A stretch of 64,000 nucleotides of DNA. Origin: Psychromonas sp. psych-6C06. GTDB taxonomy: Bacteria; Pseudomonadota; Gammaproteobacteria; Enterobacterales; Psychromonadaceae. Made by a program: the position numbers and the translations under genes. A model generated the notes under the pieces. The model was not told the DNA's origin, did not search any database, and saw only the letters and a list, made by a program, of their open reading frames with translations. The stretch covers positions 1 through 64,000 of the forward strand of contig NZ_PIZM01000002.1 of NCBI RefSeq assembly GCF_002835465.1, written 5' to 3'. Positions within the stretch are counted from its first letter, which is position 1. The number at the start of each line of letters is the position of its first letter. Shown piece by piece: positions 33,184-58,531 of this stretch.

Positions 33184-33200
33184 ATTTGCATTTTGCAACG
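33184..33200 (+). promoter_or_regulatory. Candidate activator palindrome far upstream of sypH
   Basis: ATTTGCA-TTT-TGCAACG: a 5-bp inverted repeat (TTGCA/TGCAA) with a 3-base spacer. It has the same architecture as the palindromes upstream of sypI, sypM and sypA but lies about 250 bp from the proposed sigma-54 promoter. A nearer, poorer candidate of the CTCA-N3-nGC type lies at 33343-33352. Confidence 0.35.
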
Positions 33201-33245
33201 CGAACTGCGTAATGTTTCGCATTTTATCTACAGATGCAGTTATGT

Positions 33246-33405
33246 AATACCAATGCAATTTATAAAGTGATCTCGTATTGCGGAGGAAAAATTTAAACTA
33301 CCAGGGAGTGAGTTGTAGAAATTAGTTGTTCTCTCTTCAGGGCTCACAACGCAGGTAGCGTAAATTTTAACAAGTAAGACAGATCACCTTTAACTCTTTT
33401 GCTAT
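33246..33405 (+). repeat. Dispersed intergenic repeat, copy A (partial/diverged)
   Basis: Begins with TACCAAT at 33248, then AAAGTGATCT, then a GCGGAGGAAAAA block. It ends near GACAGATCACCTTTAAC, which mirrors the internal AAAGTGATCT as an imperfect terminal inverted repeat. It shares this order of motifs with copies at 34641, 42541 and 43162. No coding capacity. Confidence 0.5.
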
Positions 33406-33431
33406 AAGCCCTCATTCAAAGCCTTTCCTGT

Positions 33432-33447
33432 CGGCATCAAACTTGCA
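33432..33447 (+). promoter_or_regulatory. Sigma-54 promoter upstream of sypH
   Basis: CGGCATCAAACTTGCA: GG (33433-33434) and GC (33445-33446) are exactly 10 bases apart, with the favoured TTGCA at -12. It lies 60 bp before the chosen sypH start. Confidence 0.6.
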
Positions 33448-33506
33448 GTGTTTCATGACAACACCGATACGAGATAACAGCATTGATAATAGTGCGGGAG
33501 GGAATG

Positions 33507-34523
33507 ATGGAAAACAATATAATCTGGTTACTGCTCGATAGCAGTAAAGGCGGGGGGATTGAGTCACATGTGATGCAACTTGCTGAAGGTTTACAACAGC
33601 ATGGAGAGCAGGTTGAAGTGGTTTTTTTGAGCAACTACGGTAAGCACCCGATGCATGATGCATTGCTAAAACAAGGTATTAATAGCCGTACCTTAGATGG
33701 ATCATTTAGCATGTTAACGCGCACCTTAAAAAACACGCGTCCTCGTGTTGTCCATACTCATGGTTATAAAGCAGGTATTTTAGGTCGGCTCGCTGCATGG
33801 ATGAACTCTATTGCTTGTATTAGTACCTTCCACGCGGGGGAAATAGCGACTGGTAAACTGGCCCTTTATGATTGGCTAGATAGAATCAGCGCCGGCTTAG
33901 CAGATCATCGGTTTGCGGTCAGTCCGCAAATAGCCTCTCGCTTACCCGCTAAAACCTCCCTGTTTAAGAACTTTGTAAATAACCATAACCTTACGACTTC
34001 CCAAGGAAATCAAATTGCTTTTGTCGGTCGGGTCAGTGCAGAAAAAGGACCCGATCATTTTGCGGCACTCGCAACGACCTTTGCCAACACACGCTTACAT
34101 TTGTACGGTGATGGCCCAGAGTTAGCTTCACTACAAGCGCACTGCCCAAGTAACTTGATACTTCATGGACAACAAGATGATATGTCTAAAGTATGGCCTA
34201 AAATCGGATTACTAGTGATGCCATCTCGCTACGAAGGATTACCAATGGCGGCGCTTGAAGCGATGGCAAGAGGTATTCCTGTGGTTGCTTTTAATGTTGG
34301 CGCATTTGATACTTTGATTGAACATCAGTGCAATGGCTGGTTAGTGGAACCGGGTAATTTAAGCGAGTTAGCAAAGTATATTCATCAATGGCAACAAGCT
34401 AGTCCGCAGCATAAACACTTTGTACAGCTAGCATGCCAGCAAACTATTGCATCACAATATTGTAGCGATGTCGCCATTCCAGATCTGATCGAAAATTATC
34501 ACATGGTAGCCACAGCAAATTAA
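33507..34523 (+). CDS. sypH: GT-B glycosyltransferase, SypH-like
   Basis: A 338-residue family-4-type glycosyltransferase that would add a sugar to the lipid-linked exopolysaccharide unit at the cytoplasmic membrane face. The N-terminal half has the SSKGGGIESHV glycine loop. The C-terminal half has the nucleotide-sugar motif MPSRYEGLPMAALEAMARG followed by IPVVAFNVGAFDTLIE. ATG 33507 was preferred because GGAGG lies 5 bp before it; an ATG directly upstream is too close, and a TTG at 33483 is unlikely. Its own sigma-54 promoter precedes it, and a 495-bp gap with a repeat separates it from sypI. The assignment rests on order relative to sypIJKL. Confidence 0.7.
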   Translation: MENNIIWLLLDSSKGGGIESHVMQLAEGLQQHGEQVEVVFLSNYGKHPMHDALLKQGINSRTLDGSFSMLTRTLKNTRPRVVHTHGYKAGILGRLAAWMNSIACISTFHAGEIATGKLALYDWLDRISAGLADHRFAVSPQIASRLPAKTSLFKNFVNNHNLTTSQGNQIAFVGRVSAEKGPDHFAALATTFANTRLHLYGDGPELASLQAHCPSNLILHGQQDDMSKVWPKIGLLVMPSRYEGLPMAALEAMARGIPVVAFNVGAFDTLIEHQCNGWLVEPGNLSELAKYIHQWQQASPQHKHFVQLACQQTIASQYCSDVAIPDLIENYHMVATAN

Positions 34524-34640
34524 CACTAACTATAAGCTACAACAATACAATGATAAACGATAAGCCCAAACACAGTGGTGCAATGGTTGGGTATAATAAA
34601 AACGCTTCAATCGCACCACGCAGCTCGTGCAAACGACTAA

Positions 34641-34808
34641 TAATACCAATTCCGCTAATATAGTGATCAAATATTACGCAGGAAAAAGGAGTTAGTGCAA
34701 GGCGAAATTTGATGCAAATGGTTGTTCCCTTTATGAAATTTTTAACGCTGAAATAGCTTCTTTTAACCAGTTAGATTGATCCACTATTTAGTGGATTTGG
34801 TATAATAA
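34641..34808 (+). repeat. Dispersed intergenic repeat, copy B (most complete, MITE-like)
   Basis: About 168 bp bounded by imperfect inverted ends: TAATACCAATTCCGCTAATA... at the left, and the complement TTATACCAAATCCACTAAATA read from the right. Inside are GTGATCAAATATTACGCAGG and GCAAGGCGAAATTTGATGC blocks, shared in diverged form with the copy at 43162 along its whole length. No ORF. It resembles a small non-autonomous mobile element or a REP-like family. Confidence 0.65.
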
Positions 34809-34850: not shown

Positions 34851-34867
34851 CATTGCAAAGTGCAATG
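34851..34867 (+). promoter_or_regulatory. Candidate SypG-type enhancer upstream of sypI
   Basis: CATTGCA-AAG-TGCAATG, a perfect 7-bp inverted repeat with a 3-base spacer. Its centre (34859) is 106 bp upstream of the GC of the sigma-54 promoter, the same distance as in the sypM region. It resembles the V. fischeri enhancer form TTCTCA-N3-TGC as I remember it. Confidence 0.6.
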
Positions 34868-34951: not shown

Positions 34952-34967
34952 TGGCTTAACCTTTGCA
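34952..34967 (+). promoter_or_regulatory. Sigma-54 promoter upstream of sypI
   Basis: TGGCTTAACCTTTGCA: GG at 34953-34954 and GC at 34965-34966, 10 bases between, with TTTGCA at -12. It lies 52 bp before the sypI ATG. Confidence 0.75.
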
Positions 34968-35018: not shown

Positions 35019-36359
35019 ATGAAAACAGTTAATCACGAGACGCAAGTGCAAACTATTCTCTTCACTCATTATGGTGATAATTGGATCCGTGGTAGTGAAC
35101 GATGTTTACTTGACCTGTTAAAGCACCTTGATAAAACCTGCTTTAAACCGTTGTTGTGGTGCAATCAGCCAATAATGGAAAGCGAAGCAAAAGCACTTGG
35201 AATAGAAGTCGTTTGCACCCCTTTTCCACTTTTATTTGGCTGGCAAGCACCTCGCTTTGATCTACAAAGCTTTTACAATCTAATTAAACAAGCAGAGCAA
35301 TTAATCAAACAACACGACATTAAGTTAATTCATGCAAACAGTGCAGCACCTTGCCAATGGTTAAATTTTGTGGCCAAAAAATGTGCCGTTCCTCTACTTT
35401 GCCAACTGCACACGCTCTATCAACTCCGTGACCGACTCACCCTTGGTTTATATCAAACCGACATGGTAGTGGGAGTAAGCCAGTATGTTGTTGCGCCTTT
35501 ATACAAAGATAAAAAGCCTCATCAGCAGCTGAAAGTAATTGCAAATGGTATTGATACACAAAGGTTACTTTCACAGCCAGAAGTAAACCTTCGTGCTACT
35601 GGTAATGTACGTATCGGTGATTTTGTGATCGCCACGGTTGGTTCATTAATCAAACGTAAAGGTGTCGATAGACTTATTAATAGTATTGCCATATTAATTA
35701 AGAAACAGATCCCCGTTCATTTAGTTGTAATCGGTAATGGCCCTGAACTTGAAAATTTAAATAGGCAGATCAAGGCACTTAATTTACAGCGACACATCAC
35801 CCTGCTTGGCGAATGTGAAAATGCCCACGGTATTTTACGAGGTAGTGCCGACCTGTTTGTTTCAGGTGCGCGTGAAGAGGCCTTTGGCTTAGTCTTTGCT
35901 GAAGCGAGCCTTGCAGGACTTGCAATTGTTGCCCCTAATATCGGGGGGATTAGTGAAGTTGTACAGCAGCAAAAAAATGGTATTTTAATTACCGATTCAA
36001 CCGATAAACATTTTATATGCACTCTGGCAGAAACAGTTGAATTACTTTATTTTTCACCTATTCGCTGCAATGCTATTGGTAAAAATGGTCAACAACATAT
36101 TCTAAAAAACTTTACCATCGAGCAAAATTGCAAAAAATTCAGCGACCTATACCAACAATTATTAACGAATAAAACAGTACAAGTATCCAGATCTGAGCAA
36201 CTACTCGGTGCAGGAATGCAAATAAGGAGCATTGGCATCGCTTTGCTCAATGCCTATCGCCGAGCCCATCAAGCAGTAAACGATAACCCTTTCAGTAGTG
36301 ATGCACCTAATAACAAGACAATATCGAACACTGGCGGAGGATTACTCCATGAAAAATAA
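35019..36359 (+). CDS. sypI: GT-B glycosyltransferase, SypI-like
   Basis: A 446-residue cytoplasmic family-4 glycosyltransferase. The acceptor domain contains a WIRGSERCLLDLL loop, and the donor domain has ATVGSLIKRKGVDRLINS and the EX7E-type block REEAFGLVFAEASLAGLAIVA (two glutamates seven residues apart). The last 60 residues are an extra tail. The start is the ATG after GAGGA, downstream of a sigma-54 promoter. Its 3' end overlaps the next glycosyltransferase by 11 bp, so sypI-J-K-L form one translationally coupled operon. Confidence 0.8.
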   Translation: MKTVNHETQVQTILFTHYGDNWIRGSERCLLDLLKHLDKTCFKPLLWCNQPIMESEAKALGIEVVCTPFPLLFGWQAPRFDLQSFYNLIKQAEQLIKQHDIKLIHANSAAPCQWLNFVAKKCAVPLLCQLHTLYQLRDRLTLGLYQTDMVVGVSQYVVAPLYKDKKPHQQLKVIANGIDTQRLLSQPEVNLRATGNVRIGDFVIATVGSLIKRKGVDRLINSIAILIKKQIPVHLVVIGNGPELENLNRQIKALNLQRHITLLGECENAHGILRGSADLFVSGAREEAFGLVFAEASLAGLAIVAPNIGGISEVVQQQKNGILITDSTDKHFICTLAETVELLYFSPIRCNAIGKNGQQHILKNFTIEQNCKKFSDLYQQLLTNKTVQVSRSEQLLGAGMQIRSIGIALLNAYRRAHQAVNDNPFSSDAPNNKTISNTGGGLLHEK

Positions 36360-37485
36360 ACATCACCTTATTATTATTGACCCAACGGCTTTTGCGGGTG
36401 GCTCAAAAGTAGCCACCGAAAATATTTTAGCTTTGCTCAATAAAGACAACATTCGCATTACAGTCTTAACTGCAGATAACAGCTCGTGGCAACACGCAAA
36501 CATTCGACGTGTCTCGCTAAATGAGCCCTCTTGGTTAGCTCAACAAGAGCAAGGTATTGCTTATTTTTTTCGCCATGCTTTTATTGCTTTAATGCTACTG
36601 ATAACACGTATACGGTTTGGACATATAGATATCGCACTCGGCGCGTCAGGGCCCGGTGTGGATTTAGCACTTTACCTGTTAAGACCAGTGCTAAAATTTC
36701 CCATTATTCAATTGATCCATGGCCCTGTTGCGCCCTCACGAACAATCGCACGCTGTTTAAAAGTGGCACATCAAGTTCATTACCTGCAAACATCAGCGCC
36801 CTCTTTGCTACTTGCCCTAAATACACTTAATAACGCACAAGAAACACTACCGAGCCACTTTCAACTTTTACAAAATGGCTTGTCAACACAACATTGGCCA
36901 ACAGCTTGTCAGCAGCATTCAGCCTCTATTTTTTGGGCAGCATCATTATTAAAGTGGAAAGGTTTGGAGCAGTTGCTCGGCGCATTACAGTTAATGCCAG
37001 AGGAAAGGCGCCCGACAACACACATTTGTTACATAAAGCCACAGGGATTACAGCTACCGATCAGCGAGGCACCTATAAAAATACCTAAGATTAACTGGTA
37101 TGAAAATCCACGCAAATTAGACAGCATTCGCGCTAGCGCTAATATTTTTGTGTCCACCAGCATCAACGAACCCTTCGGTTTATCTATTTTAGAAGCCTTA
37201 GCGGCCGGGCAAGCGGTCGTTATTCCAAAAGATGGTGCGTACTGGGACCAACAGCTACAACACAACGTAAACTGTATTAAATACCAAACGAATGATGAAC
37301 ATGATCTTAAAGAGGCATTACAAAAGCTCAGTAGCGATCTTCATTTAATACGCCGATTAGGTGCGCAAGCGAAACACGTCGCACTGCAATATCGTGCAGA
37401 ACAACAATATCGCCCCGTCATTAACGGCATTGAAAACGCTCTTTTAAAGTACCCGGCAAGTAACAGATTAACAGGGAGCGTATAA
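36349..37485 (+). CDS. sypJ: GT-B glycosyltransferase, SypJ-like
   Basis: A 378-residue glycosyltransferase. FAGGSKVATENIL is the N-terminal acceptor loop and STSINEPFGLSILEALAAGQ the nucleotide-sugar-binding block. ATG 36349 was chosen because GGCGGAGG lies at good spacing before it and the family N-terminus HHLIIIDPTAFAGG follows directly. It starts inside the end of sypI and its stop overlaps the start of the flippase gene (TAATG). Confidence 0.8.
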   Translation: MKNKHHLIIIDPTAFAGGSKVATENILALLNKDNIRITVLTADNSSWQHANIRRVSLNEPSWLAQQEQGIAYFFRHAFIALMLLITRIRFGHIDIALGASGPGVDLALYLLRPVLKFPIIQLIHGPVAPSRTIARCLKVAHQVHYLQTSAPSLLLALNTLNNAQETLPSHFQLLQNGLSTQHWPTACQQHSASIFWAASLLKWKGLEQLLGALQLMPEERRPTTHICYIKPQGLQLPISEAPIKIPKINWYENPRKLDSIRASANIFVSTSINEPFGLSILEALAAGQAVVIPKDGAYWDQQLQHNVNCIKYQTNDEHDLKEALQKLSSDLHLIRRLGAQAKHVALQYRAEQQYRPVINGIENALLKYPASNRLTGSV

Positions 37486-38930
37486 TGAAGATTTTGACTC
37501 ATAAACTTTCGCCTGCCATGCAACAGGGTATGCTTTACGGCGCCAGCATCGCGTTAATGAAAGGCACATCATTATTAATGCTTCCTTTTATTGCCAATCA
37601 TATTACAGCAGACCAATTTGGTCGCTTAGAGGTGATCAGCACCTTAGCAGTTATCGGCAGTATTTTAGTTGGTATGGGTCTTGAAGATACACTATTTCGC
37701 TTTGCTGGAACGGAAAAATGCACTCATAAACGCGCCAAAATAAGTGCAGAAATATTTACGTTAACGCTTTTAATTGGTTTATTAACGCTACTAGTTAGTT
37801 GGTTTGTTGCCCCTCTATTAAGCCCTGTTTTTCCAGGAGGAGCGACAGTTTATGAATTACGTTTAGTCCTTTCCGTTTTAGCCTTAGAGGGTTGCATTGC
37901 TATACCACTAGGTTGGTTGCGTATGAACAATCATGCCTTCTCTTTCTTTTTTGCCAGCACTGCTCGAGCCTTACTACAAGCCTTTTTAGTTGTTGTTTTC
38001 CTATATTTTGAGCGTGGTGTAAGTGGTATTTTAGAGGCAAGTTTGATTGCAACCGTGGCGCAAATGTTATTCTTAACAGTATTGCAACTACGTGATACAG
38101 GAATAAGATTTAATATTGCCACTTGTAAACGGGCATTTATCTATAGCTTACCTATTGTAGCGAGTGGGCTGGTCGCCTTTGCGCTTAACGGAATGGATCG
38201 ATGGGTACTGGCAGAGCAAACCAGTTTAGCCGACGTCGCACAATTTGCGATTGCAGCTAAGTTTGCTTTAGCAATGGTACTGTTAATGCAGCCCTTTGGC
38301 ATGTGGTGGTCACCACGTAGATTTAGTGTATTAAATACAGAAAATGGTAAACAAAAAGTATCCCATTATATCGCCATCGGTTGCGTTATCGCACTGCTCA
38401 TCACAGTGAGTGTCGCTATTATTTCACCGCCACTAATTACGACTCTCTTACCTGCAAGCTATCAACAAGCGACGTATTATGTGGTGGCAATTACCATAAT
38501 CATGTTATTAAAGGAACTTGTAGAGCTGTTTAATATTGGTTGCTTTAATGGTGAGACTACATCCAGCCAATTAATCATTAACCTTATCGGGGCAATCGTA
38601 GGCATGACAAGCATGCTTTATTTAGCGCCGATTTATCAAGTATGGGGGGTGATATTGGCACTATTGTTAGCACAATCATTACGTTTACTCATGTTTTATT
38701 ACGTTAGCCAGTATTTTTTAACCCTCAACTATCCAATCCGCGCTCTATTGTCATTAAGTATTGCGAGTGCGTTATGGTTAATCGTGGCATCACAGATACA
38801 AAACCTAGCACAGGGTTTAGGGCAATCAATCATACTGTTAATTGTAGCAACCAGCAGTTTGCTATGGTTTGCACAACGCTTAGGTCTAATTAACTTAAAC
38901 CACACTATGCTCACTCGAGTGACTCAATAA
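37485..38930 (+). CDS. sypK: Polysaccharide repeat-unit flippase (Wzx-like), SypK-like
   Basis: A 481-residue protein with about 12-14 hydrophobic helices throughout, opening QQGMLYGASIALMKGTSLLMLPFIA, the oligosaccharide-flippase (MATE/MOP superfamily) pattern. It would carry the undecaprenyl-linked sugar unit across the inner membrane. It overlaps both neighbours by one base (TAATG junctions). Its position between the glycosyltransferases and the ligase matches SypK. Confidence 0.85.
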   Translation: MKILTHKLSPAMQQGMLYGASIALMKGTSLLMLPFIANHITADQFGRLEVISTLAVIGSILVGMGLEDTLFRFAGTEKCTHKRAKISAEIFTLTLLIGLLTLLVSWFVAPLLSPVFPGGATVYELRLVLSVLALEGCIAIPLGWLRMNNHAFSFFFASTARALLQAFLVVVFLYFERGVSGILEASLIATVAQMLFLTVLQLRDTGIRFNIATCKRAFIYSLPIVASGLVAFALNGMDRWVLAEQTSLADVAQFAIAAKFALAMVLLMQPFGMWWSPRRFSVLNTENGKQKVSHYIAIGCVIALLITVSVAIISPPLITTLLPASYQQATYYVVAITIIMLLKELVELFNIGCFNGETTSSQLIINLIGAIVGMTSMLYLAPIYQVWGVILALLLAQSLRLLMFYYVSQYFLTLNYPIRALLSLSIASALWLIVASQIQNLAQGLGQSIILLIVATSSLLWFAQRLGLINLNHTMLTRVTQ

Positions 38931-40354
38931 TGTATTGCCTAGGCAGAAAGTTTCAACAAAATATGTTGTTACCATTACTTTTGTGTGGCGTCGTTGCGCC
39001 ATTGTTACTTTTGCTATGGCTTTTCGTTCCTCACCCTATTATTTTTATTGCCATTGGTTTACTACCAATTGCTATCTTAGTGGTGCTTCACCAACCCTTT
39101 CTCTTTGTATTACTGTTTGTTATCTTCTCTTTTTTTCGAATTCATGAAGTGTTTCCGCAACTCTATAATTTTAAAATTCCATTACTTTTATCACTCGCCT
39201 CGCTCGGCGCATTAACTTGGCATGTAGCAATAAGTAGAAAGTTACGTGTTTACTGGAGCGCTGAATTTACCACTATCAGCATATTCTTTATATTAGTTAT
39301 CGCAGGCGTGTTATTGGCGAGTAACCGCCCGATTGCAATTGAATACTTCAAGGGAATATATTGGAAGATTATCCTCATGACTTTTGCAATTGCTTGGTTA
39401 TCGCGCACTGAAAAAGACTTTGCACTCGCATCACGTTTAATTACCTTTTTTGGCTTGCTTGTTGGTGCTGTTGCACTAGCAAATCAGGTGAATGGAGTGG
39501 GTTTAGTTGAAGGTACACGGGTCACAATCGGACGAGATATCGGCTCAGTTTTAGGGGATCCGAACGATTTAGCCTTGGTATTAATGTTTCCAGTCGCTTT
39601 TGCCTGTAGTTTGATAATAACGCCAAACATTGGTACTTACAGTAAATGTTTAGGCTGGCTAAGTGCCATTATTCTTTTTTTAGCTATCATTGCGACACAA
39701 AGCCGGGGTGGATTACTGGGTATGATGGCAATTTTTGCGGTGTTTGGTTATCGCCGTATTCAATCAAAAACATTATTTATATGTCTTGGTATCATCGTCG
39801 CCATCGCCCTCTTTGTGTTTGCGGGTATCTCTGATCGTGCTTCTGGGGGAGCCGCAGAAGCAGGTATTGATGCTTCTGCAATGGGGCGCTTATATGCGTG
39901 GGAGGCGGCCTTTGGCATGGCAGTGCATAACCCATTAAGCGGGGTTGGAATTAATAATTTTTATTCAAATTATTACTATTACAGCCCGCATTGGGATGGC
40001 CTTAATCATGCAGTGCATAGCACTTGGTTTGGCGTACTTGCTGAAACAGGCTTTTTAGGCTTAATTGTTTTTGTCCTCTGTATCTATTCATTAGTGCGAA
40101 CATCAATGCGTAGCCTGAACGATATTGAAGCACAAATTAAACATAGCACTAATAAAGAGGGAGCAGTAAAGCGCGTAGCAGCAGATATTCACGCCAGTGC
40201 ACAGGCCGTATTTGCTGGATTGATAGGCACTATCGTATCAGCAACATTTCTCACTCAAGGATTTACTTGGCCAATCTATATTTTAGCGGCTTTCGTTATC
40301 GCAATCGCACAATACAATGCACAACATTTAACGATGACAAAAAGAACTAATTGA
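38930..40354 (+). CDS. sypL: O-antigen ligase/polymerase (Wzy_C family), SypL-like
   Basis: A 474-residue membrane protein with about 11-12 helices and a large periplasmic loop holding the family signature GRLYAWEAAFGMAVHNPLSG followed by VGINNFYSNY. It polymerises or ligates undecaprenyl-linked oligosaccharide in the periplasm. Last gene of the sypIJKL unit; no clear terminator was recognised in the 87 bp before the convergent methyltransferase gene. Confidence 0.85.
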   Translation: MYCLGRKFQQNMLLPLLLCGVVAPLLLLLWLFVPHPIIFIAIGLLPIAILVVLHQPFLFVLLFVIFSFFRIHEVFPQLYNFKIPLLLSLASLGALTWHVAISRKLRVYWSAEFTTISIFFILVIAGVLLASNRPIAIEYFKGIYWKIILMTFAIAWLSRTEKDFALASRLITFFGLLVGAVALANQVNGVGLVEGTRVTIGRDIGSVLGDPNDLALVLMFPVAFACSLIITPNIGTYSKCLGWLSAIILFLAIIATQSRGGLLGMMAIFAVFGYRRIQSKTLFICLGIIVAIALFVFAGISDRASGGAAEAGIDASAMGRLYAWEAAFGMAVHNPLSGVGINNFYSNYYYYSPHWDGLNHAVHSTWFGVLAETGFLGLIVFVLCIYSLVRTSMRSLNDIEAQIKHSTNKEGAVKRVAADIHASAQAVFAGLIGTIVSATFLTQGFTWPIYILAAFVIAIAQYNAQHLTMTKRTN

Positions 40355-40441
40355 AAGCAAGGCAGAGGGAATGTGGCTGGTTATAATTAGCTTCCTTTCG
40401 CTTGCAGTAACAATTTTCAGTTTAATGTTCTGCTTATCTGC

Positions 40442-41029
40442 TTACTTTAAAGAGCCAATAGCTTGAATTACAGCCCCTAAGCCATTGTGATTGATGCCTT
40501 CATTTACAACACGATCAACATCTTCTAAATGGCTAAATGCAAACTTGGGAAGTTCATTTACTAGGGTTTCTTTTGAAGCCATCATCGAGGCAACGGGAGG
40601 ACCACCTGTTTTATTGTCTAACTGTTCAGGTCGGTAACCTTCTAAAAAGAAAACGCCAGAGGGTTTAATTGCCTGTTCAATTTTTTTATATAAAGCCTGC
40701 CTAATTGTGGGTGGCAAATGGCAATAAATAGAAACAATGCCATCCCATTTTTTATCACCAAGATCAAACTCGGCCAGATCAGCACAAATGGTTTCAATTT
40801 TGACGTTATTTTCGCTAGCAAGCTTTTCTGCTTTTTTCAAACCTACACAGGAGAGATCAACAGCTGTCACTGAGTAACCTAATTTAGCAAGAAAAACTGC
40901 ATTTCGTCCTTCCCCTTCCGCAAGCATTAATACTTTTCCCTTTGGAATCGCTTGATAATGACTTTTAAGGAAATCATTTGGCAATTTTCCGTACACATAT
41001 TCTTCTCTATCGTATTCTTTATCCCACAT
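40442..41029 (-). CDS. Class I SAM-dependent methyltransferase (TehB-like)
   Basis: A 195-residue cytoplasmic methyltransferase. The opening MWDKEYDREEYVYGKLPNDF is typical of small TehB/thiopurine-like methyltransferases. Motif I is VLMLAEGEGRNAVFLAKLG, then VTAVDLS for the adenosine ribose acidic residue and DGIVSIYCHLP as motif IV. The substrate is unknown; relatives act on tellurite, thiols or small metabolites. It is transcribed against the syp genes and is probably unrelated to them. Confidence 0.85.
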   Translation of the reverse strand: MWDKEYDREEYVYGKLPNDFLKSHYQAIPKGKVLMLAEGEGRNAVFLAKLGYSVTAVDLSCVGLKKAEKLASENNVKIETICADLAEFDLGDKKWDGIVSIYCHLPPTIRQALYKKIEQAIKPSGVFFLEGYRPEQLDNKTGGPPVASMMASKETLVNELPKFAFSHLEDVDRVVNEGINHNGLGAVIQAIGSLK

Positions 41030-50791: not shown

Positions 50792-50808
50792 ATTCGCAAA
50801 ATGCGAAT
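50792..50808 (+). promoter_or_regulatory. Candidate SypG-type enhancer upstream of sypM
   Basis: ATTCGCA-AAA-TGCGAAT, a perfect 7-bp inverted repeat with a 3-base spacer. The centre (50800) is 106 bp before the -12 GC of the sigma-54 promoter, identical to the sypI arrangement. A further TTTGCAAA half-site is at 50813-50820. Confidence 0.65.
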
Positions 50809-50891
50809 GCACTTTGCAAATAAATACAATTCATCTCATTTAAAAAAGAGAAGAAAAACACTAACACACTGATTTTAAATAAAATAAAAAA

Positions 50892-50908
50892 CTGGCGCAC
50901 TCTGTGCA
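50892..50908 (+). promoter_or_regulatory. Sigma-54 promoter upstream of sypM
   Basis: CTGGCGCACTCTGTGCA: GG at 50894-50895, GC at 50906-50907, 10 bases between. It lies 45 bp before the sypM ATG, in an otherwise AT-rich 335-bp intergenic region. Confidence 0.75.
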
Positions 50909-50952
50909 ATATCCCTCTTACTAATCGAAAAGTATCAGATGGGAGCACGATC

Positions 50953-51690
50953 ATGAAAGCATTAACTTTAAACCAAACCAAGCAGTGGCTTAAAACTAGC
51001 CAACACCCAATGGCCAAAATGATCTTTTCTCAGCTAAAGAAATTATTTCGTTTTGAACTACCCGCACCTAAATTCATTTTGCGTCCAATGTATTTTATTT
51101 ACCAGTTCAGTACCCAACTATTTCTCACTTTTACCCGCGTTATTATTTGGACCCCATTACTAAAGGGTCGTCTCCATCGATTTGGTGAGAACCTTAACCT
51201 CTATGGAGGCTTGCCTTACATAAGTGGGCCACTACAAATCTCTCTCGGAGACAATTGCCGTATATCAGGCCAATCGACGTTGACGGGCAGAAGTTGTGCA
51301 CCACAAACACCACAATTAATACTGGGCGATAACATTGATATTGGCTGGATGACCACCATTGCAGTCGCTACGCGTGTTCAACTTGGCAATAATGTACGTA
51401 TTGCTGGTCGCGCTCTATTAGCCGGTTACCCTGGGCACCCTATTGATGCTGAAGCGCGTGCAATAGGTTTACCTGAAACAGATGATCAAGTTGGTGACAT
51501 TGTCTTGGAAGACGATGTTTGGTTAGCCACTGGTGTATCAGTCATGGCAGGAGTAACAATTGGACAAGGAACCATTGTCGCGGCAGGTAGTGTGGTCACT
51601 CATGATCTTCCAGCAATGGTATTAGCAGCAGGCATTCCAGCTAAAGTTATTCGCTCTCTTGCCCACAATAATTCAGCCCAGGAGCTATAA
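50953..51690 (+). CDS. sypM: Left-handed beta-helix acyltransferase, SypM-like
   Basis: A 245-residue hexapeptide-repeat acetyltransferase. The C-terminal half shows the repeating isoleucine/valine hexads (DDVWLATGVSVMAGVTIGQG, TIVAAGSVVTHDLPAMVLAAG, IPAKVIR). It would O- or N-acetylate a sugar of the exopolysaccharide using acetyl-CoA. It starts 45 bp after a sigma-54 promoter with GGGAG before the ATG. First gene of the M-N-O-P-Q-R unit; the next start is 1 bp after its stop. Confidence 0.85.
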   Translation: MKALTLNQTKQWLKTSQHPMAKMIFSQLKKLFRFELPAPKFILRPMYFIYQFSTQLFLTFTRVIIWTPLLKGRLHRFGENLNLYGGLPYISGPLQISLGDNCRISGQSTLTGRSCAPQTPQLILGDNIDIGWMTTIAVATRVQLGNNVRIAGRALLAGYPGHPIDAEARAIGLPETDDQVGDIVLEDDVWLATGVSVMAGVTIGQGTIVAAGSVVTHDLPAMVLAAGIPAKVIRSLAHNNSAQEL

Positions 51691-51691
51691 C

Positions 51692-52831
51692 ATGCATCAT
51701 GATCTGATTGTATTTGCCGAGGATTGGGGTGGACTACCAAGTAGCACACAACACCTGATCAAACAGCTTGCTAAAACACGAAAAGTAATTTGGATAAACT
51801 CTATCGGCTTACGTCAACCTACTTTTACTCTTCGTGACATTAAACGTGCTTTTAATAAGTTAATAGCGACAAAAGTGGATAGCGAAACGCCACAAACTAG
51901 CGTGCCTGTTAATCCTCATTTTCAGATTATTAATCCACGCACGTTACCTGCGCCACGTAGCCATTTTGCTCGTTTTATAGCCAAAAAACTCTTGTTGTTA
52001 CAGTTAAAACCAATTATTAAACAAGCGCAGTTACAAGATCCTATTCTGTGGACATCCCTTCCTACTGCTGTTGATGTGGCTGGTTACCTCAATGAGAGCG
52101 CATTAGTATATTACTGTGGTGATGATTTTTCTGGCCTTGCAGGGGTTGATCATGCCACCGTTGCACAGCGCGAATATGAACTGAGCTTAAAAGCAGATTT
52201 GATCATGGTATCAAGTGACAAACTTCTACAGCAATTTCCCTCATCTCGGACACAACTGCTCACTCATGGGGTGGATTTTACGCTATTCGCAACACCCGTG
52301 GCTCGCGCAAATGACTTACCAGATAACGGCCGTCCTATTGCTGGTTTCTATGGCAGTATTTCAGCGTGGCTTGATATTGATCTATTAGCAGCCATCATAA
52401 AGAAAATGCCACATTGGCAGTTTGTATTTATTGGCGCTACGGTTGTAGATACTTGTAAAATAAGCATCTTTGAAAACGTAACATTCTTAGGCCCACGGGA
52501 TCATAGTCAGCTACCTTCATACTGCCAACACTGGACGGTTTCATTATTACCTTTTGTTGATAATGCACAAATTCAAGCTTGTAACCCCCTTAAATTAAAA
52601 GAATACCTAGCGGCGGGACGCCCTATTATTAGTACCGATTTTGCGGCCATCACCCCCTATAAAGGGTTAGTGCAAATTGCCAATAACGTCGATGCGATGG
52701 TAGAAGCCCTAAATGCGAGTGAGCAGTTACAAACACTGCCACATTTTAGTGATGCGTTACAAAGTAAAGTAATCAACAAAAGCTGGGAGTCACGCGCGAC
52801 AGAGGTTAATCATTGGCTGGAGTGTTTATGA
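51692..52831 (+). CDS. sypN: Glycosyltransferase, SypN-like
   Basis: A 379-residue GT-B-type glycosyltransferase (FAEDWGGLPSSTQHLIKQLA; YCGDDFSGLAGVDH; IAGFYGSISAWLDIDLLA; NPLKLKEYLAAGRPIISTDF, the typical donor-binding helix). ATG 51692 with AGGAG 8 bp upstream is preferred to an earlier in-frame start inside sypM. Its stop overlaps the sypO ATG (ATGA). Confidence 0.82.
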   Translation: MHHDLIVFAEDWGGLPSSTQHLIKQLAKTRKVIWINSIGLRQPTFTLRDIKRAFNKLIATKVDSETPQTSVPVNPHFQIINPRTLPAPRSHFARFIAKKLLLLQLKPIIKQAQLQDPILWTSLPTAVDVAGYLNESALVYYCGDDFSGLAGVDHATVAQREYELSLKADLIMVSSDKLLQQFPSSRTQLLTHGVDFTLFATPVARANDLPDNGRPIAGFYGSISAWLDIDLLAAIIKKMPHWQFVFIGATVVDTCKISIFENVTFLGPRDHSQLPSYCQHWTVSLLPFVDNAQIQACNPLKLKEYLAAGRPIISTDFAAITPYKGLVQIANNVDAMVEALNASEQLQTLPHFSDALQSKVINKSWESRATEVNHWLECL

Positions 52832-54360
52832 ATAGCTTAAATTACCGTTTTTATTTTATTTTAGCGGGCGCTTGGCGTCGTCGCTACAGCATTCTGATAC
52901 CAATGATCATTTTGCCATTGCTTGCCAGTTTATTAAGCTTTATTAGCCCTAAAAACTATGCATCGCACACCAGTATGTTAATTCAGGAAACATCAAAACT
53001 TAACCCTTTCTTGGAAGATTTAGCGGTGTCATCAATGCTAAAAGAGCGCATCAACTCATTGAAAATACTACTCCACAGTCGCCATATTTTAGGCGCTGTA
53101 GCGTCTGAACAGGGACTGGTTGATGAGCATACAACCGCGGCGCAGCACGATCACGTTATCGCTCAATTATCAAATGCGTTAAGTATTGAAATGTTGGGCA
53201 AAGATCTTATTCGTATCGATTACCAATCAAACTCACCGCTGGGTATGAAGGAGATGTTGGAATCAGTGAGCACGCAATTTATCGAGCAAGTACTCGCGCC
53301 TGAGCGATCTTCTATGAATGATTCAAGTCGCTTTTTAGCTGAGCACCTTAATAAGCGTCAAATTGAGCTTGATAAAGCAGAACTGGCAATGGCGCAATAC
53401 AAAGATGCCAACGCAAATGAGTTACCAGAGCTTTACCTTACCAACATTTCTCGCCTTGCTCAGATGAAACAACGCCTTGCTGAACGTCAAGCAACACTTG
53501 ATGGTGCAAGCCGAAGCTTAGGTGGCATCAATCAACAACTGTCTAAAACAAATCCTGTGCTTGGGCTTATTGAGCAGAAAATTATCGTATTACAAAGCGA
53601 ATTAGCTTTATTACAAGGTCGCTATACAAATCAGCATAGCAAAGTGGTCACTGCGGTGAAAAACTTAAATCTTCTGCAAGAAGAGCGTCAAAAACTACTT
53701 AATGCTATCGAAACAAACCAAGATGAAAACTTAAGTATCGAGAAACTCTGGGCGATTGGTAATAATTACCAGATTAATAATTCACAACTACAAAACGCCA
53801 CCAGCAAACAACCCCTTCTTATTTCGCAGTTAGAAAATATGCAACTGACCAGTGGCAAGGTACAGGGGTTAATTGAAGAGGTAAAAAGCTTAAAAAGCAT
53901 GATTGCTGAAATTGAACAACAAATTGCCAGTTATGGTGCTAATGCCAGTCTGCTTTCAAAGTTAGAGCGAGAAGTTGCCGTTAAACGCGATCTTTACGAT
54001 GACATGTTAGTACGTTTTGAAAAAGCAGGAATTACCTCTTCACTGGGGGTTTTTGAACAAGATAAACGCGTGAAGGTGATTGACCGCCCTTTCACTCCAA
54101 CACGCTCTACGAATAAACCTTTAATCCTATTTATCATCAGTGGTCTCATCGGTGGCATTTTACTCGGCTGTGGATTGGCCATTATTCAAGAGTTAAGTGA
54201 TAGCACACTGCGCACTCGTGAACATCTACACCGCTTAACCGGAGCACCGGTATTTAGTCGCATACCACGTATCCATAACTCACTAAACAATGAACGCATG
54301 GTTAACCCCGTTAGCAACAACCACCTTTCCAATAATTCTGCTCAAGGAGAATTCGCATGA
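52828..54360 (+). CDS. sypO: Polysaccharide co-polymerase / chain-length regulator (Wzz-like), SypO-like
   Basis: A 510-residue inner-membrane protein. Transmembrane segment one is at about 22-42 (ILIPMIILPLLASLLSFI). A long periplasmic coiled-coil region follows (about 160-390; many heptads such as IEQKIIVLQSELALLQGRY), then segment two near 430-450 (PLILFIISGLIGGILLGCG) and a short cytoplasmic tail. It lacks a fused kinase domain; the ATPase partner is the separate SypD-like protein. ATG 52828 with GGAG was chosen over an earlier in-frame start. It overlaps neighbours by 4 bp on both sides. Confidence 0.87.
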   Translation: MNSLNYRFYFILAGAWRRRYSILIPMIILPLLASLLSFISPKNYASHTSMLIQETSKLNPFLEDLAVSSMLKERINSLKILLHSRHILGAVASEQGLVDEHTTAAQHDHVIAQLSNALSIEMLGKDLIRIDYQSNSPLGMKEMLESVSTQFIEQVLAPERSSMNDSSRFLAEHLNKRQIELDKAELAMAQYKDANANELPELYLTNISRLAQMKQRLAERQATLDGASRSLGGINQQLSKTNPVLGLIEQKIIVLQSELALLQGRYTNQHSKVVTAVKNLNLLQEERQKLLNAIETNQDENLSIEKLWAIGNNYQINNSQLQNATSKQPLLISQLENMQLTSGKVQGLIEEVKSLKSMIAEIEQQIASYGANASLLSKLEREVAVKRDLYDDMLVRFEKAGITSSLGVFEQDKRVKVIDRPFTPTRSTNKPLILFIISGLIGGILLGCGLAIIQELSDSTLRTREHLHRLTGAPVFSRIPRIHNSLNNERMVNPVSNNHLSNNSAQGEFA

Positions 54361-55457
54361 AAACCGTCCTTCAAGTTGTACAGCACCTACGCCCAGGCGG
54401 TATCGAAACGATCGCGCTGGATCTAATCTCTTTTGCGTCGCAGGATGAACAGCACTTCATTGTTAGTTTAGAGGGGGATTTAGCTTCAGCAATCAAACAA
54501 TGGCCGAAACTTGCATCCTTTGAAAAACAATTAATCTTTTTAAATAAACAGCCTGGCCTAAGCTACTCGTTACTTTTCTCATTATTAAAGTTATTCAAAA
54601 ACATGTCGCCGGTAGCGGTTCATACTCACCATATTGGGCCACTATTATACGCAGGCTTAGCCGCGCGTTTAAGCTCAGTTAAACACCTTATTCATACAGA
54701 GCATGATGCTTGGCACCTAAATGATAAAAAACGTCGTTTATTACAACGTAACGCCATTAAGGTATTACACCCCACCTTAATAGCGGATGCAAAAACCGTT
54801 GCTGAGCAGATGAAAATACGCCTTAAAAGCAAACATAAGATCCGCGTTATACGCAATGGTATTAACTGTGAAACCTTCACCCCGGGCAACAAACCATCAG
54901 CCAGAGCACACTTTGATTTGCCTGAAGATAAAGTGATCATTGGTTGTAGTGGACGAATGGAAAAAGTGAAAGGACAAAGTGTCCTTATTAACGCATTAAG
55001 TATCCTACCGAAGCATGTACACCTTGCCTTTGCAGGGAGTGGTAGTACTGAAGCTGCACTACGTGAATTAGTCGACATGCTTGCGCTTAACGAACGAGTT
55101 CATTTTCTCGGTCATGTTGATCAGATGCCCCGTTTTTATCAATCCTTAGACATTTTTTGCTTACCCTCTTTAAATGAAGGTTTTCCACTTTCACCACTGG
55201 AAGCACAAGCTTGCAATATCACAACATTGGTTACCAATGTCGGTGCCAGTAAAGAAACCGTTTGCCCAGTTACAGGGCGATATGTAGTGCCTAATAACGC
55301 TAGCGCGATGGCAAAAGTACTGAAAGAAATGCTAATGACGGTCAATGAATGCTCGCCACGCACATTTGTTGAGCAACATGGCAACCTGCGTAGCATGATT
55401 AATGCCTACGCTAGCCTTCGTCATTCGCCACAATTCACAGGAGTCTGTTATGAGTAA
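54357..55457 (+). CDS. sypP: GT-B glycosyltransferase, SypP-like
   Basis: A 366-residue family-4 glycosyltransferase: VVQHLRPGGIETIALDLI acceptor loop, HTHHIGPLLYAGLAARLS, IGCSGRMEKVKGQSVLINAL and the donor block LPSLNEGFPLSPLEAQACN. It starts within the ATGA overlap with sypO. In V. fischeri sypP has its own sigma-54 promoter; I found no convincing GG-N10-GC site in the end of sypO here. Confidence 0.82.
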   Translation: MKTVLQVVQHLRPGGIETIALDLISFASQDEQHFIVSLEGDLASAIKQWPKLASFEKQLIFLNKQPGLSYSLLFSLLKLFKNMSPVAVHTHHIGPLLYAGLAARLSSVKHLIHTEHDAWHLNDKKRRLLQRNAIKVLHPTLIADAKTVAEQMKIRLKSKHKIRVIRNGINCETFTPGNKPSARAHFDLPEDKVIIGCSGRMEKVKGQSVLINALSILPKHVHLAFAGSGSTEAALRELVDMLALNERVHFLGHVDQMPRFYQSLDIFCLPSLNEGFPLSPLEAQACNITTLVTNVGASKETVCPVTGRYVVPNNASAMAKVLKEMLMTVNECSPRTFVEQHGNLRSMINAYASLRHSPQFTGVCYE

Positions 55458-56658
55458 TTTACTTTTAATTGTTATTACCTTAGGCAGTGGTTTATTAGTG
55501 ATTTACCATCACATTGGCTACCCATTAATGCTGCGTTTGTTAGCGAAACAGCGTTTACAAACAAAGCACAAAACAGAGCCGATTAAAGGAGATCGCCACT
55601 ACACTGACTCCGACGAAGATGCGCAACTTGCTGATATTGCTATTGTGATGCCCGCTTATAATGAAGCGCAATGGATTGCTGAAAAAATTCGTAACCTGGC
55701 TGCCTTAGATTACCCAGCTAGCCATCTACAAATTATTATTGGTTGTGATGGTTGCAGTGATGATACTTTCGCATTAGCAACATCAACCGCAAAAGAGCCA
55801 GAGTGTGCACACCTCAATATCAACATTATTGAGTTTAAAGAAAACCGAGGAAAGGTTGCCCTACTCAATGACCTACTGAGCAATATCGATTGTGAATTAG
55901 TGGCACTTACCGATACTTCTGCACTGCTCTCCATTGATGCCCTATTAGTTGCAACGCAACGTTTTAACGATCCTAACATTGGCGTATTAAATGGCCATTA
56001 TCGAGTTATTTCACCTGGTTCACAGGGCGAGCAAACCTACTGGGATTACCAAAGCCAAATTAAATTAAGTGAAGCTGCGCTTGGTTCAACGCTTGGAGCA
56101 CACGGGGCTTTTTATATGTTTCGTTATGCACTCTTTGAGCCGCTTGCAAGCGATACTATCAATGATGATTTTATTTTACCCATGAAAATAGTAGCAGCTG
56201 GTTACCGCGCGGATTACGAACAAGCGATCAATGCGTTGGAATTAGAGAGCGCAGATAACCAACAAGATCATCACCGTCGTCGTCGTATTGCAGCCGGAAA
56301 TTTACAACAACTATTGCGTTTAAAAGCACTACTGTTACCACGCTATAAAGGCGTAGCATTCTCATTTATCTCAGGTAAAGCATTACGCGTTTTAATGCCC
56401 TTTTTAATGCTCAGTGCATTATTAGGATCACTAATATTAGCCAGCCAACATGTGCTTTTTTTAGGCTTAGCCATTGCACAATTAACCGCTTATTGCATGG
56501 CAGCATGGCAGCTCATCTTCAAGCCACAACAAAGTAATAAAGCCAGTAAATTACTCGCTTATTTAGTCAGTGGTCATTGCGCAGGGTTAATTGGCAGTGT
56601 GCGATACCTGCTTCGTTTAGACAAAGGCCACTGGCACAAAGTTAACAGTTCAAAGTAA
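55450..56658 (+). CDS. sypQ: Membrane GT-A (family 2) glycosyltransferase, SypQ-like
   Basis: A 402-residue processive-type family-2 glycosyltransferase. An N-terminal membrane helix (about 1-22) is followed by the GT-A domain with VMPAYNEAQWIAEKI, GCDGCSDDTF, the DxD-equivalent LTDTSALLS, NDDFILPMKIVAAGY and RRRRIAAGNLQQL (QxxRW-like region). Two or three C-terminal helices complete it. ATG 55450 has AGGAG before it and overlaps the sypP end by 8 bp. Confidence 0.85.
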   Translation: MSNLLLIVITLGSGLLVIYHHIGYPLMLRLLAKQRLQTKHKTEPIKGDRHYTDSDEDAQLADIAIVMPAYNEAQWIAEKIRNLAALDYPASHLQIIIGCDGCSDDTFALATSTAKEPECAHLNINIIEFKENRGKVALLNDLLSNIDCELVALTDTSALLSIDALLVATQRFNDPNIGVLNGHYRVISPGSQGEQTYWDYQSQIKLSEAALGSTLGAHGAFYMFRYALFEPLASDTINDDFILPMKIVAAGYRADYEQAINALELESADNQQDHHRRRRIAAGNLQQLLRLKALLLPRYKGVAFSFISGKALRVLMPFLMLSALLGSLILASQHVLFLGLAIAQLTAYCMAAWQLIFKPQQSNKASKLLAYLVSGHCAGLIGSVRYLLRLDKGHWHKVNSSK

Positions 56659-56733
56659 CGGTTCAAAGTACCAGAAAGACAAATACAGATTAAAAATATA
56701 AATCATCACTTAAAATAGCTTAAGGAAAACATT

Positions 56734-57408
56734 ATGAATACATTTACCCAACGTTTCGATAACAAGCCCCTTACTTCTGAGACCTATATTCACCCTGTGG
56801 TTGTATATGGAAAACGCCTTTTTGATATCCTTTTCTCAATCTGCGCATTACTCATCTTATTCCCGATTTTACCATTTATCGCGCTAGCAATTAAACTTGA
56901 TAGCACTGGCCCGGTTTTTTATCTGCAACCACGACTAGGGCAATCACAGAAAGGCAACCTTAACGTTTTTAATGTGATTAAATTTAGAACCATGGGCATC
57001 GATGCTGAAAAAGAGGGAAAGGCATTATTAGCAACAAAATCTGATCCGCGTATTACACGTGTGGGTGCTTTTTTACGTAAAACTCGTTTTGATGAAACGC
57101 CACAATTTATCAATATATTACGTGGAGAGATGTCATTAATTGGTCCTCGCCCTGAGCGCCCTGAGCTCACCAGCGCAATCGATAAAAAAATGCCTTTTTT
57201 CAGTGAACGGACCTACCAAGTCCTACCAGGTTTAACTGGATTGGCACAAATAAAACAAAGTTACCTTGGCAGTGTCGATGATATTGACCAAAAACTTGCC
57301 TTTGACCATGCATATTCACTGTCTATCAGCCACCCTCTTAATTGGCTAAAAACAGATATGTTCATTTTGCTACAAACAGTACTAACGGTATTAAAGTGCA
57401 ATGGATAA
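56734..57408 (+). CDS. sypR: Initiating undecaprenyl-phosphate sugar phosphotransferase, SypR-like
   Basis: A 224-residue bacterial sugar transferase (WcaJ/PglC catalytic type) that starts repeat-unit synthesis by moving a sugar-1-phosphate to undecaprenyl phosphate. One re-entrant or membrane helix (RLFDILFSICALLILFPILP) is followed by FYLQPRLGQ, IKFRTMG, RFDETPQFINILRGEMSLIG and the GPRPERPE motif. AGGAAAA lies before the ATG. Its last 8 bp overlap the next gene. Confidence 0.9.
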   Translation: MNTFTQRFDNKPLTSETYIHPVVVYGKRLFDILFSICALLILFPILPFIALAIKLDSTGPVFYLQPRLGQSQKGNLNVFNVIKFRTMGIDAEKEGKALLATKSDPRITRVGAFLRKTRFDETPQFINILRGEMSLIGPRPERPELTSAIDKKMPFFSERTYQVLPGLTGLAQIKQSYLGSVDDIDQKLAFDHAYSLSISHPLNWLKTDMFILLQTVLTVLKCNG

Positions 57409-58399
57409 ATTAATTAAAAAAAGCCAGCTTATGCAACGGATTTTTATAGTCATTTTGGGGCTGTCGGTATTATTGTTACTGCTTCCTGCAATAGCAAATA
57501 ATATCCCTGTCTGGTGGTTAGATAACCTGCTTAATTTGCAGCTACAATGGGCACTACTGAGTGGCTTATTAATCATGCTTAACTGGTTGTATATAAAACA
57601 ATGGCGCATGAGTAGTAGCTTGTTACTCAGCGGGTTAATTTTCTATAATTTAAGTTGGTTGTATTTTCCCGTTATGCAAACATCAGAAAATAAACATCAG
57701 CAAGTGACGCAAACACTGACCGTTGCTCAGTTTAATTTAAATTATAACAACCCTAATTTAAAACAGTTATTACCCAAACTCGGAAACTCAAGCTTTGATC
57801 TATTGGTTATTCAAGAGGCATCTGATAGTGAGCATAAGAACATTAATGCCCTTGCTAAATACTATCCCTATTCATTTGGATTAAGTAAGCTAGAAGCCAC
57901 CCCTTCTGGTATGGCAATATTTTCACGCTGGCCAATTAGCGAACAACAGGTGCACGATCTTGGTTATAAAAGCGGGCATATATTAGAAGTTATTCTGCAA
58001 ATAGGTGATATAAACACACCAGTACAGCTTTTTGCGCTTCACCCAGGCTCCCCGCGAAGCATTGAATTATGGGAGCGACGTAATCAAACATTAGCAACCG
58101 TTGCCAATAAAGTTGCCCACTCGACCTTCATAAATAAAATCGTTATTGGCGATTTTAATAGCTCACCGTGGACCACCTCATTTAAACAGTTTCAACATAC
58201 AAGTGGTTTAAAAAACAGTGCGCAGGGATTTGGTTATCTACCAAGTTGGTCCTATAGCGCCAAACCAGTGCTAGCCATGTTGAGTAGCGTTTATATCGAT
58301 CATCACCTAGTTAGCCCTACTTTTAAAGTCCTTGATAAGCACACACAACGTTTAGCTGGATCAGATCATTTAATGGTGATCACCGAATTAGCAATGTAA
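57401..58399 (+). CDS. Membrane-anchored endonuclease/exonuclease/phosphatase-fold protein, coupled to sypR
   Basis: A 332-residue protein. About three N-terminal helices (residues 10-90) are followed by an EEP-fold hydrolase domain with its catalytic landmarks: VAQFNLN, LLVIQEAS (metal Glu), VIGDFNSSPW (Asp/Asn), VYIDHHLV and AGSDHLMV (terminal Asp-His). EEP proteins cleave phosphodiester or phosphomonoester bonds in nucleic acids, inositides or other substrates. The gene overlaps sypR by 8 bp, so it belongs to the sypMNOPQR transcript. The 18-gene V. fischeri syp locus, as I know it, has no such gene. The substrate could be lipid-linked phosphate, but this is speculation. Confidence 0.82.
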   Translation: MDKLIKKSQLMQRIFIVILGLSVLLLLLPAIANNIPVWWLDNLLNLQLQWALLSGLLIMLNWLYIKQWRMSSSLLLSGLIFYNLSWLYFPVMQTSENKHQQVTQTLTVAQFNLNYNNPNLKQLLPKLGNSSFDLLVIQEASDSEHKNINALAKYYPYSFGLSKLEATPSGMAIFSRWPISEQQVHDLGYKSGHILEVILQIGDINTPVQLFALHPGSPRSIELWERRNQTLATVANKVAHSTFINKIVIGDFNSSPWTTSFKQFQHTSGLKNSAQGFGYLPSWSYSAKPVLAMLSSVYIDHHLVSPTFKVLDKHTQRLAGSDHLMVITELAM

Positions 58400-58426
58400 A
58401 AAATAACAAAATATCATTGCAAAAGG

Positions 58427-58443
58427 ATTTGCAAATTGCGAAA
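58427..58443 (+). promoter_or_regulatory. Candidate SypG-type enhancer upstream of sypA
   Basis: ATTTGCA-AAT-TGCGAAA: an imperfect inverted repeat of the same design as at 34851 and 50792. Its centre (58435) is 94 bp upstream of the -12 GC, 12 bp (about one helical turn) nearer than at the other two. A CATTGCA half-site lies at 58415-58421. Confidence 0.55.
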
Positions 58444-58514
58444 AACTAACCTTAAAAAACCATAAAAAACGCCTAAAAAACCGTAAGCAATTGTTTTTAA
58501 ATAACATAATATTT

Positions 58515-58531
58515 TAGGCACACCCCCTGCA
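58515..58531 (+). promoter_or_regulatory. Sigma-54 promoter upstream of sypA
   Basis: TAGGCACACCCCCTGCA: GG at 58517-58518, GC at 58529-58530, 10 bases between, with GGCAC at -24. It lies 39 bp before the sypA ATG. Confidence 0.75.

Follow-up and report, generated by a model that had tools for sequence, protein, structure and literature searches.

The closest described counterpart of the system considered here is the syp biofilm-polysaccharide locus of Vibrio fischeri, which, according to the available passages of PMC10804989, comprises four operons that begin with sypA, sypI, sypM and sypP and that all have a sigma-54 promoter and SypG sites. The available part of PMC10162802 gives the upstream activating sequence (UAS) of V. 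fischeri SypG as TTCTCANNNTGMDWN and that of the quorum-sensing regulator LuxO as TTGCAWWWTGCAA. As described there, SypG activates qrr1 through sites that overlap the LuxO sites upstream of that gene, the qrr1-site change G-131T harmed SypG and spared LuxO, and active LuxO leaves PsypA and PsypP silent, the mechanism of this insulation being called open. Psychromonas positive for the scv locus are mentioned in the portion of PMC8941931 at hand. Here we analysed a 64,000-nucleotide stretch of the marine bacterium Psychromonas sp. psych-6C06 (contig C2:1-64000, hereafter the window; genome of 3.72 Mb in 32 contigs) that carries most of a syp cluster, the best SypC match among named genomes being Psychromonas marina with 88% identity. 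Four sigma-54 elements in the window, each with a dyad upstream, are very probably the promoters of one regulon under SypG.

A first-pass annotation of this DNA, made from its letters, had placed GG-N10-GC elements before sypH, sypI, sypM and sypA, with inverted repeats of a 3-base spacer farther upstream, and all of them were read in the sequence. The -24/-12 elements, one before each predicted operon, lie on the plus strand at 33432..33447 for sypH (CGGCATCAAACTTGCA), 34952..34967 for sypI (TGGCTTAACCTTTGCA), 50893..50908 for sypM (TGGCGCACTCTGTGCA) and 58516..58531 for sypA (AGGCACACCCCCTGCA). The dyads, which we regard as putative UASs, have the form TYGCA-N3-TGCRA at all four promoters and occupy 33185..33199 (sypH, TTTGCATTTTGCAAC, of SypG/LuxO type, between sypH and the divergent lruC), 34852..34866 (sypI, ATTGCAAAGTGCAAT), 50793..50807 (sypM, TTCGCAAAATGCGAA) and 58428..58442 (sypA, TTTGCAAATTGCGAA). 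The distance from dyad to -12 GC is 106 bp at both sypI and sypM and 94 bp at sypA, exactly as had been claimed, and 253 bp at sypH. The sypH repeat had been called weaker, which is not so, as its 13-base core TTGCA-TTT-TGCAA is perfect and it is merely farther from its element. At sypM a second, imperfect dyad (AATGCACTTTGCAAA, 50806..50820) lies 13 bp from the first, with the same sequence and spacing in loci L033 and L034. The set of V. fischeri promoters named there, at sypA, sypI, sypM and sypP, agrees with the available passages of PMC10804989, and the fourth promoter here is indeed at sypH, none having been noticed at sypP in a scan of 80 kb.

The window dyads are of the TTGCA/TCGCA type. 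Set against the LuxO UAS TTGCAWWWTGCAA as given in the passages of PMC10162802, the sypH dyad is exact (TTGCATTTTGCAA), those of sypI and sypA are one position off each and that of sypM is two positions off. The V. fischeri SypG enhancer TTCTCANNNTGMDWN from the same passages was sought in its palindromic form TTCTCANNNTGAGAA, which had no match at up to one mismatch in the 64 kb, the degenerate published form itself not being scanned; TTCTCA-N3-TGAGAA has no match in the window at up to one mismatch. In sequence, the Psychromonas syp dyads are of LuxO type and not the V. fischeri SypG site as those passages give it, and the idea that they are a more symmetric V. fischeri enhancer has to be given up.

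Sigma-54-like matches are common by themselves, with 26 of score ≥9 in the 80 kb, as would be expected if the GG-N10-GC matches were due to chance and the dyads served a repressor or some other DNA-binding protein as operators. We consider this highly improbable, since pairing and spacing are kept in six genomes, the sypH core is identical to the LuxO UAS in the published passages (PMC10162802), and 49 of the 50 Vibrio loci have a sigma-54 element of score ≥8 in the vicinity of sypA. When a pair was defined as a TYGCANNNTGCRA dyad with a sigma-54 score ≥9 located 60-320 bp downstream, the 80 kb held four pairs, every one at a syp 5' end, whereas 300 dinucleotide shuffles averaged 0.06 pairs and never gave more than 2. 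This pattern took the place of the loose motif TTNGCA-N3-TGCNAA, which was dropped because it is unenriched in the window (50 seen with up to two mismatches, 57.2 expected); in the genome-wide scan that the first-pass annotation had proposed, its exact form gave eight sites and its reversed control eight, so that the count alone is no enrichment. Genome-wide, TYGCANNNTGCRA has 12 sites (reversed-pattern control 8), four of which are the syp promoters; among the other eight, six lie within open reading frames (ORFs) and two are intergenic without a sigma-54 match ≥7 at 40-320 bp. The sole sigma-54 match above 7 near these non-syp sites, at L030 (C10:4735, score 9), was rejected as a fifth target, both elements being within an ORF.

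As the Y/R form of TYGCANNNTGCRA was picked after the four syp sites had been seen, these counts are partly circular, and conservation in other Psychromonas therefore serves as an independent test. Among the 24 Psychromonas genomes examined, six have a sypH orthologue, namely that of the window and five others, and with a sigma-54 threshold of ≥8 for the relatives, a dyad and an element precede sypH, sypI, sypM and sypA in 24 of 24 cases (four in the window and 20 of 20 in the relatives). The dyads of these 20 promoters lie 83-152 bp from the -12 GC. The longest ORF begins upstream of the element in G049 (sypH and sypM) and G047 (sypI), so the true starts must be farther downstream. A dyad inside the G051 syp cluster (L233, 11396) was set aside as it has no sigma-54 element.

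Besides the shaping of the motif on the four sites, several observations weigh against a single SypG regulon of this kind. The raw TYGCANNNTGCRA counts in the relatives are not consistently above the reversed control (9 v 8 in G047, 24 v 8 in G049, 20 v 14 in G051, 8 v 17 in G052 and 18 v 17 in G056), and number alone is thus no evidence, the signal being carried by position. The sypH spacing of 253 bp stands apart from the 120-152 bp of the five relatives, and six of the 16 sypA promoters grouped as non-Vibrionaceae are without a strict dyad. G056 (L035, 18447-18548) keeps dyads and promoters, its sypF is followed by a gene which we take to be glmS, and no SypG was found in its genome. No SypG was found in the genome of G049 either, whose syp contig stops before the expected place of sypG. 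As both keep the dyads, SypG need not be their reader everywhere.

In the genome of the window, six full-length enhancer-binding proteins are encoded, of which SypG (C2:68573-69970), located in the syp cluster, is the only LuxO/SypG-like one, and an rpoN gene is present. This SypG is 53% identical to that of A. fischeri, its best NCBIfam match is the LuxO model at 657 bits, under the cut-off of 800, and its C-terminal helix-turn-helix (HTH) reads GNIPKAAALLDVSPSTIYRKKQ. Its orthology rests on synteny, because the tree leaves it unsettled whether Vibrionaceae SypG or LuxO is the nearer kin. LuxO was found over the NF041946 cut-off in none of the 24 Psychromonas genomes, the window's own included, and in 30 of 45 genomes searched, drawn from those of 46 of the 80 loci; by their record titles, the 30 all belong to Vibrionaceae or Vibrionales. 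Qrr (RF00378) had no match in the window's own genome in the same search that was positive in 11 of 11 LuxO-positive genomes and in 0 of 16 LuxO-negative ones (27 searched). With LuxO and Qrr not found, the dyads would most naturally be read by the sole LuxO/SypG-like protein. Of the remaining five enhancer-binding proteins, one is NtrC, one a PEP-CTERM-type regulator and one unassigned, and two we take to be flagellar regulators.

That an enhancer-binding protein other than SypG reads the dyads, be it one of these five or one with a SypG-like HTH such as G049 and G056 encode, appears improbable to us for this genome, where none of the five has the SPSTIYRKK recognition helix and SypG is located in the syp cluster itself. 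Such a reader is suggested in G056 and G049 (L210, L211), which combine syp dyads and no SypG found with an enhancer-binding protein whose HTH is GN[VI]PKAAALLEVSPSTIYRKKMSW and whose gene has a G/G dyad (G before CA in each half-site) upstream. The SypG regulon accordingly remains our preferred account for the window, and the earlier proposal that a sigma-54/SypG-type regulon joins the syp blocks has good support from their position, from conservation in six of six syp-bearing Psychromonas, from the single SypG-like activator in the cluster and from rpoN. In the mechanism that we propose, phosphorylated SypG would bind the TYGCA-N3-TGCRA dyads upstream of the syp promoters and would open E-sigma54 at sypH, sypIJKL, sypMNOPQR and sypABCDE(FG) by DNA looping and ATP hydrolysis, the known mode of enhancer-binding proteins, and the four predicted operons, with transcription starting at the predicted promoters, would thereby be co-regulated. 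The regulon would be a new variant of the SypG/syp system and is very likely real.

To compare operator forms across lineages, strict dyads were sought at 80 sypA-bearing loci by means of the neutral pattern TYKCA-N3-TGMRA (L050, without sypA, not counted), and each was scored by the G or T before CA in its two half-sites. The Vibrio, Aliivibrio, Photobacterium and non-Vibrionaceae groups were set from record titles, and the last includes several gammaproteobacterial metagenome-assembled genomes. At sypA, the strict dyads were G/G in 10 of 10 cases in the non-Vibrionaceae (16 promoters, including the six without a strict dyad), T/T in 44 of 44 in Vibrio (38 promoters, four without; 12 more without an element in that scan) and hybrid in 12 of 12 in Aliivibrio (seven promoters), while V. 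penaeicida had two T/T and two hybrid dyads (two promoters) and Photobacterium one G/G (five promoters, four without). At sypI, Vibrio had 23 T/T and one hybrid (36 promoters, 12 without) and Aliivibrio seven T/T (five promoters), and the hybrid form of Aliivibrio is therefore confined to sypA. The non-Vibrionaceae sypM dyads were six G/G, one T/T and one hybrid (nine promoters, two without; two more loci without an element), and an element was lacking at sypM in 13 of 15 Vibrio loci. The first sypA scan had missed the 12 Vibrio promoters owing to ORF starts placed too far upstream; in the scan as then widened, 48 of 49 Vibrio promoters were nearer TTCTCA and 14 of 16 non-Vibrionaceae ones nearer TTTGCA, with two ties. 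The one Vibrio promoter scoring nearer the G type, L090, did so perhaps through a wrong element being chosen. The qrr dyads of 11 Vibrionaceae genomes were 31 G/G, four hybrid and no T/T out of 35 (30 loci, 27 with a dyad). As a sequence pattern, the two operator forms are solid, with a TTGCA type in Psychromonas and other LuxO-less bacteria, TTCTCA in Vibrio and a hybrid at Aliivibrio sypA.

The changes in the SypG HTH match these two operator forms in the 71 SypG and 30 LuxO sequences compared (numbering of the window SypG). Positions 444, 445 and 448 part LuxO and non-Vibrionaceae SypG from Vibrionaceae SypG with zero overlap, being P (N in two LuxO), K/R/Q/A and A/G/K/T/R in the former and L/I, N/S/T and V in the latter. 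Position 452 is V in the former and L in Vibrionaceae SypG with one exception, and position 457, in the recognition helix, is I in non-Vibrionaceae SypG, L in Aliivibrio, Photobacterium and V. penaeicida, V in Vibrio and I or L in LuxO. In a tree built without the HTH from 48 rows (18 of 61 Vibrionaceae SypG, 15 of 30 LuxO, all ten other SypG and five outgroup sequences), Vibrionaceae SypG and LuxO each formed a single group (100/100) and the other SypG did not. An approximately unbiased (AU) test of how these three sets branch gave p values of 0.618 and 0.19, with a best-tree support of 75/66. The G/G form would be the simpler ancestor in two of the three branching orders.

One reading of this pattern, which extends the SypG regulon as our best explanation and does not replace it, is that in Vibrionaceae, where LuxO and SypG occur together, the syp dyads moved from TTGCA to TTCTCA and syp thereby escaped activation by LuxO, and that LuxO-less Psychromonas keeps TTGCA. 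We hold it to be possible rather than probable. The split at sypA, with which the wider scan agrees, speaks for it, as do the qrr promoters that stay of the TTGCA type, the confinement of LuxO, which Qrr follows, to Vibrionaceae and Vibrionales among the genomes searched, the parting of the groups at HTH positions 444, 445 and 448 and the silence of PsypA and PsypP under active LuxO in V. fischeri, as far as the passages of PMC10162802 describe it. There is, however, essentially one evolutionary transition, and the correlation with LuxO is therefore not independent evidence; the AU values above also leave undecided how LuxO and the two groups of SypG branch. The effect of G-131T reported in those passages is opposite to the simplest form of this idea, though we may speculate that it matters that the change gives a TTTCA rather than a TCTCA half-site, and qrr1, with its G/G sites, is still a target of V. 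fischeri SypG (PMC10162802, same passages). Photobacterium galatheae, one of the Vibrionaceae, has a G/G dyad before sypA, yet it has neither LuxO over the cut-off nor, in its syp locus (L046 13431-17871), a sypG between sypF and sypH, and the four other Photobacterium sypA promoters are without a strict dyad.

Put more specifically, and still more tentatively, the syp enhancer and the SypG HTH might have shifted in concert, in a single event on the Vibrionaceae line, with a code of LuxO type (TTGCA; HTH I-P-[K/R/Q]-A-A) giving way to a new one (TTCTCA; HTH V-L-N-A-A-V), which would shield syp from the paralogue LuxO while SypG still reached qrr. Psychromonas would then represent the unshielded ancestral state and Aliivibrio sypA a half-and-half one. 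The comparison turns the insulation question posed in the passages of PMC10162802 into a concrete test with natural sequences, the contrast between LuxO-free and LuxO-bearing lineages coming down to a single operator letter in each half-site (G or T before CA) and to three to five residues of the HTH, and it would provide a worked example of how a regulator and its operator diverge alongside a paralogue.

The first-pass annotation counted four sigma-54 promoters, all of which stand, and missed a fifth, divergent sigma-54-like element. This one lies before lruC (30759..32990, minus strand), which is divergent from sypH and encodes a LruC-domain protein (TIGR04456, 251.9 bits, cut-off 36). The -24/-12-like element (TGGCACAACAATTGAC, 33050..33065, minus strand) has a -12 GA instead of GC and is 140 bp from the dyad shared with sypH. 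Divergence of lruC from sypH is seen in the window and in four of the five relatives (G049, G051, G052 and G056; 68-77% identity), and the pattern TGGCAY-N5-YTG precedes lruC on the minus strand, 126-160 bp from the dyad, in exactly the five Psychromonas with lruC beside sypH; in G047, neither lruC nor this element was found in the stretch read. The pattern occurs seven times in 48 kb of strand from six loci, five of them at lruC. A strict GG-N10-GC search misses most lruC elements because their -12 is usually TTGA or TTGT. In Aliivibrio lruC is divergent from sypA, and under a looser score all six loci that have lruC show a comparable element, which in five of them lies 43 bp before the gene and in L039 falls within the called ORF. 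These findings suggest a fifth, degenerate sigma-54-like promoter at lruC that would be served by the sypH dyad, and lruC is likely to belong to the syp regulon as well. No report of such membership was found in the portions of the literature searched.

The syp genes are ordered here as lruC on the minus strand, sypH, sypI-J-K-L, 10.6 kb of other genes, sypM-N-O-P-Q-R with an endonuclease/exonuclease/phosphatase-like gene, and sypA-B-C-D-E, so that the gene set of a SypG-controlled syp regulon is present. Their names follow what we take to be V. fischeri usage and are consistent with the sequence matches. On the plus strand, the glycosyltransferase gene sypH (a name presumed likewise, which fits the locus matches) is at 33507..34523, sypI-sypJ-sypK-sypL, a predicted operon judging by overlap and strand, at 35019..40354, the block from sypM to sypR with the additional gene (57401-58399, its label being our own reading and not from a family search) at 50953..58399, and sypA to sypD with the start of sypE at 58561..64000, the last two blocks being assigned by locus matches. 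Beyond the window, the same contig continues with the rest of sypE, a REC protein, a PhnD-like protein, sypF and sypG; the REC, PhnD-like and other non-syp domain names in this part are presumptive, by our reading of the sequence. Counterparts of the window genes sypA to sypK occur at A. fischeri locus L043, in the order known for that locus, and counterparts of sypL to sypO at Aliivibrio L039, while sypP, sypQ and sypR were matched only in other loci, the Aliivibrio stretches compared ending earlier. As the order is permuted relative to V. fischeri and sypH is parted from the sypA operon, this arrangement would account for sypH carrying its own promoter.

The syp blocks had been described as dispersed. 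They do lie apart, but they look dispersed largely because 10.6 kb (40354-50953) part sypL from sypM here, a distance of 136-233 bp in the six other loci measured, none of which has this segment; it is thus probably an insertion on this line. Its genes appear, by our reading, methyltransferase-like, Mrp-type antiporter-like and sugar-dehydrogenase-like. A repeat resembling a miniature inverted-repeat transposable element (MITE), with terminal inverted repeats, is located at 34640..34806 and stops 46 bp before the sypI dyad; at least 40 near-full genomic copies share 91-100% identity (40 of 142 candidates scored). Within the sypH spacer, 33245-33291 resembles one MITE end (77% over 47 bp), and a MITE remnant may therefore account for the longer 253-bp spacing.

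Two further observations concern the relatives. G049 has the largest dyad excess over the reversed control among the five searched, possibly reflecting a wider regulon. In three Psychromonas without a sypH orthologue, a third LuxO-like subgroup (L206, L207 and L208; HTH IPLAAAHLGVSASTIYRKIK) is encoded beside a PhnD-like gene; the dyads there are of the G/G form at L207 and L208 and hybrid at L206.

Among the open-licence literature, searched by titles and abstract openings, no report of the operator switch or of SypG in Psychromonas was found. Compared with the V. fischeri syp/SypG system as the available passages describe it, the Psychromonas locus shares the syp genes, the sigma-54 promoters before sypA, sypI and sypM and a SypG in the cluster. 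It differs in its permuted order (H-I-J-K-L, M-R, A-G), in having a promoter at sypH and none noticed at sypP in the 80-kb scan, and in its TTGCA-type dyads, where Aliivibrio has hybrid (sypA) or TTCTCA-type (sypI) ones. With the LuxO/qrr system of Vibrionaceae it has in common the TTGCA-N3-TGCAA dyad upstream of a -24/-12 element, whereas its targets are syp operons and not Qrr RNAs, in a genome with no LuxO over the cut-off and no Qrr match. The scv/ScvE system of V. parahaemolyticus, in the available portion of PMC8941931, is similar as a syp-like polysaccharide locus under a sigma-54 regulator and differs in being described there as two operons.

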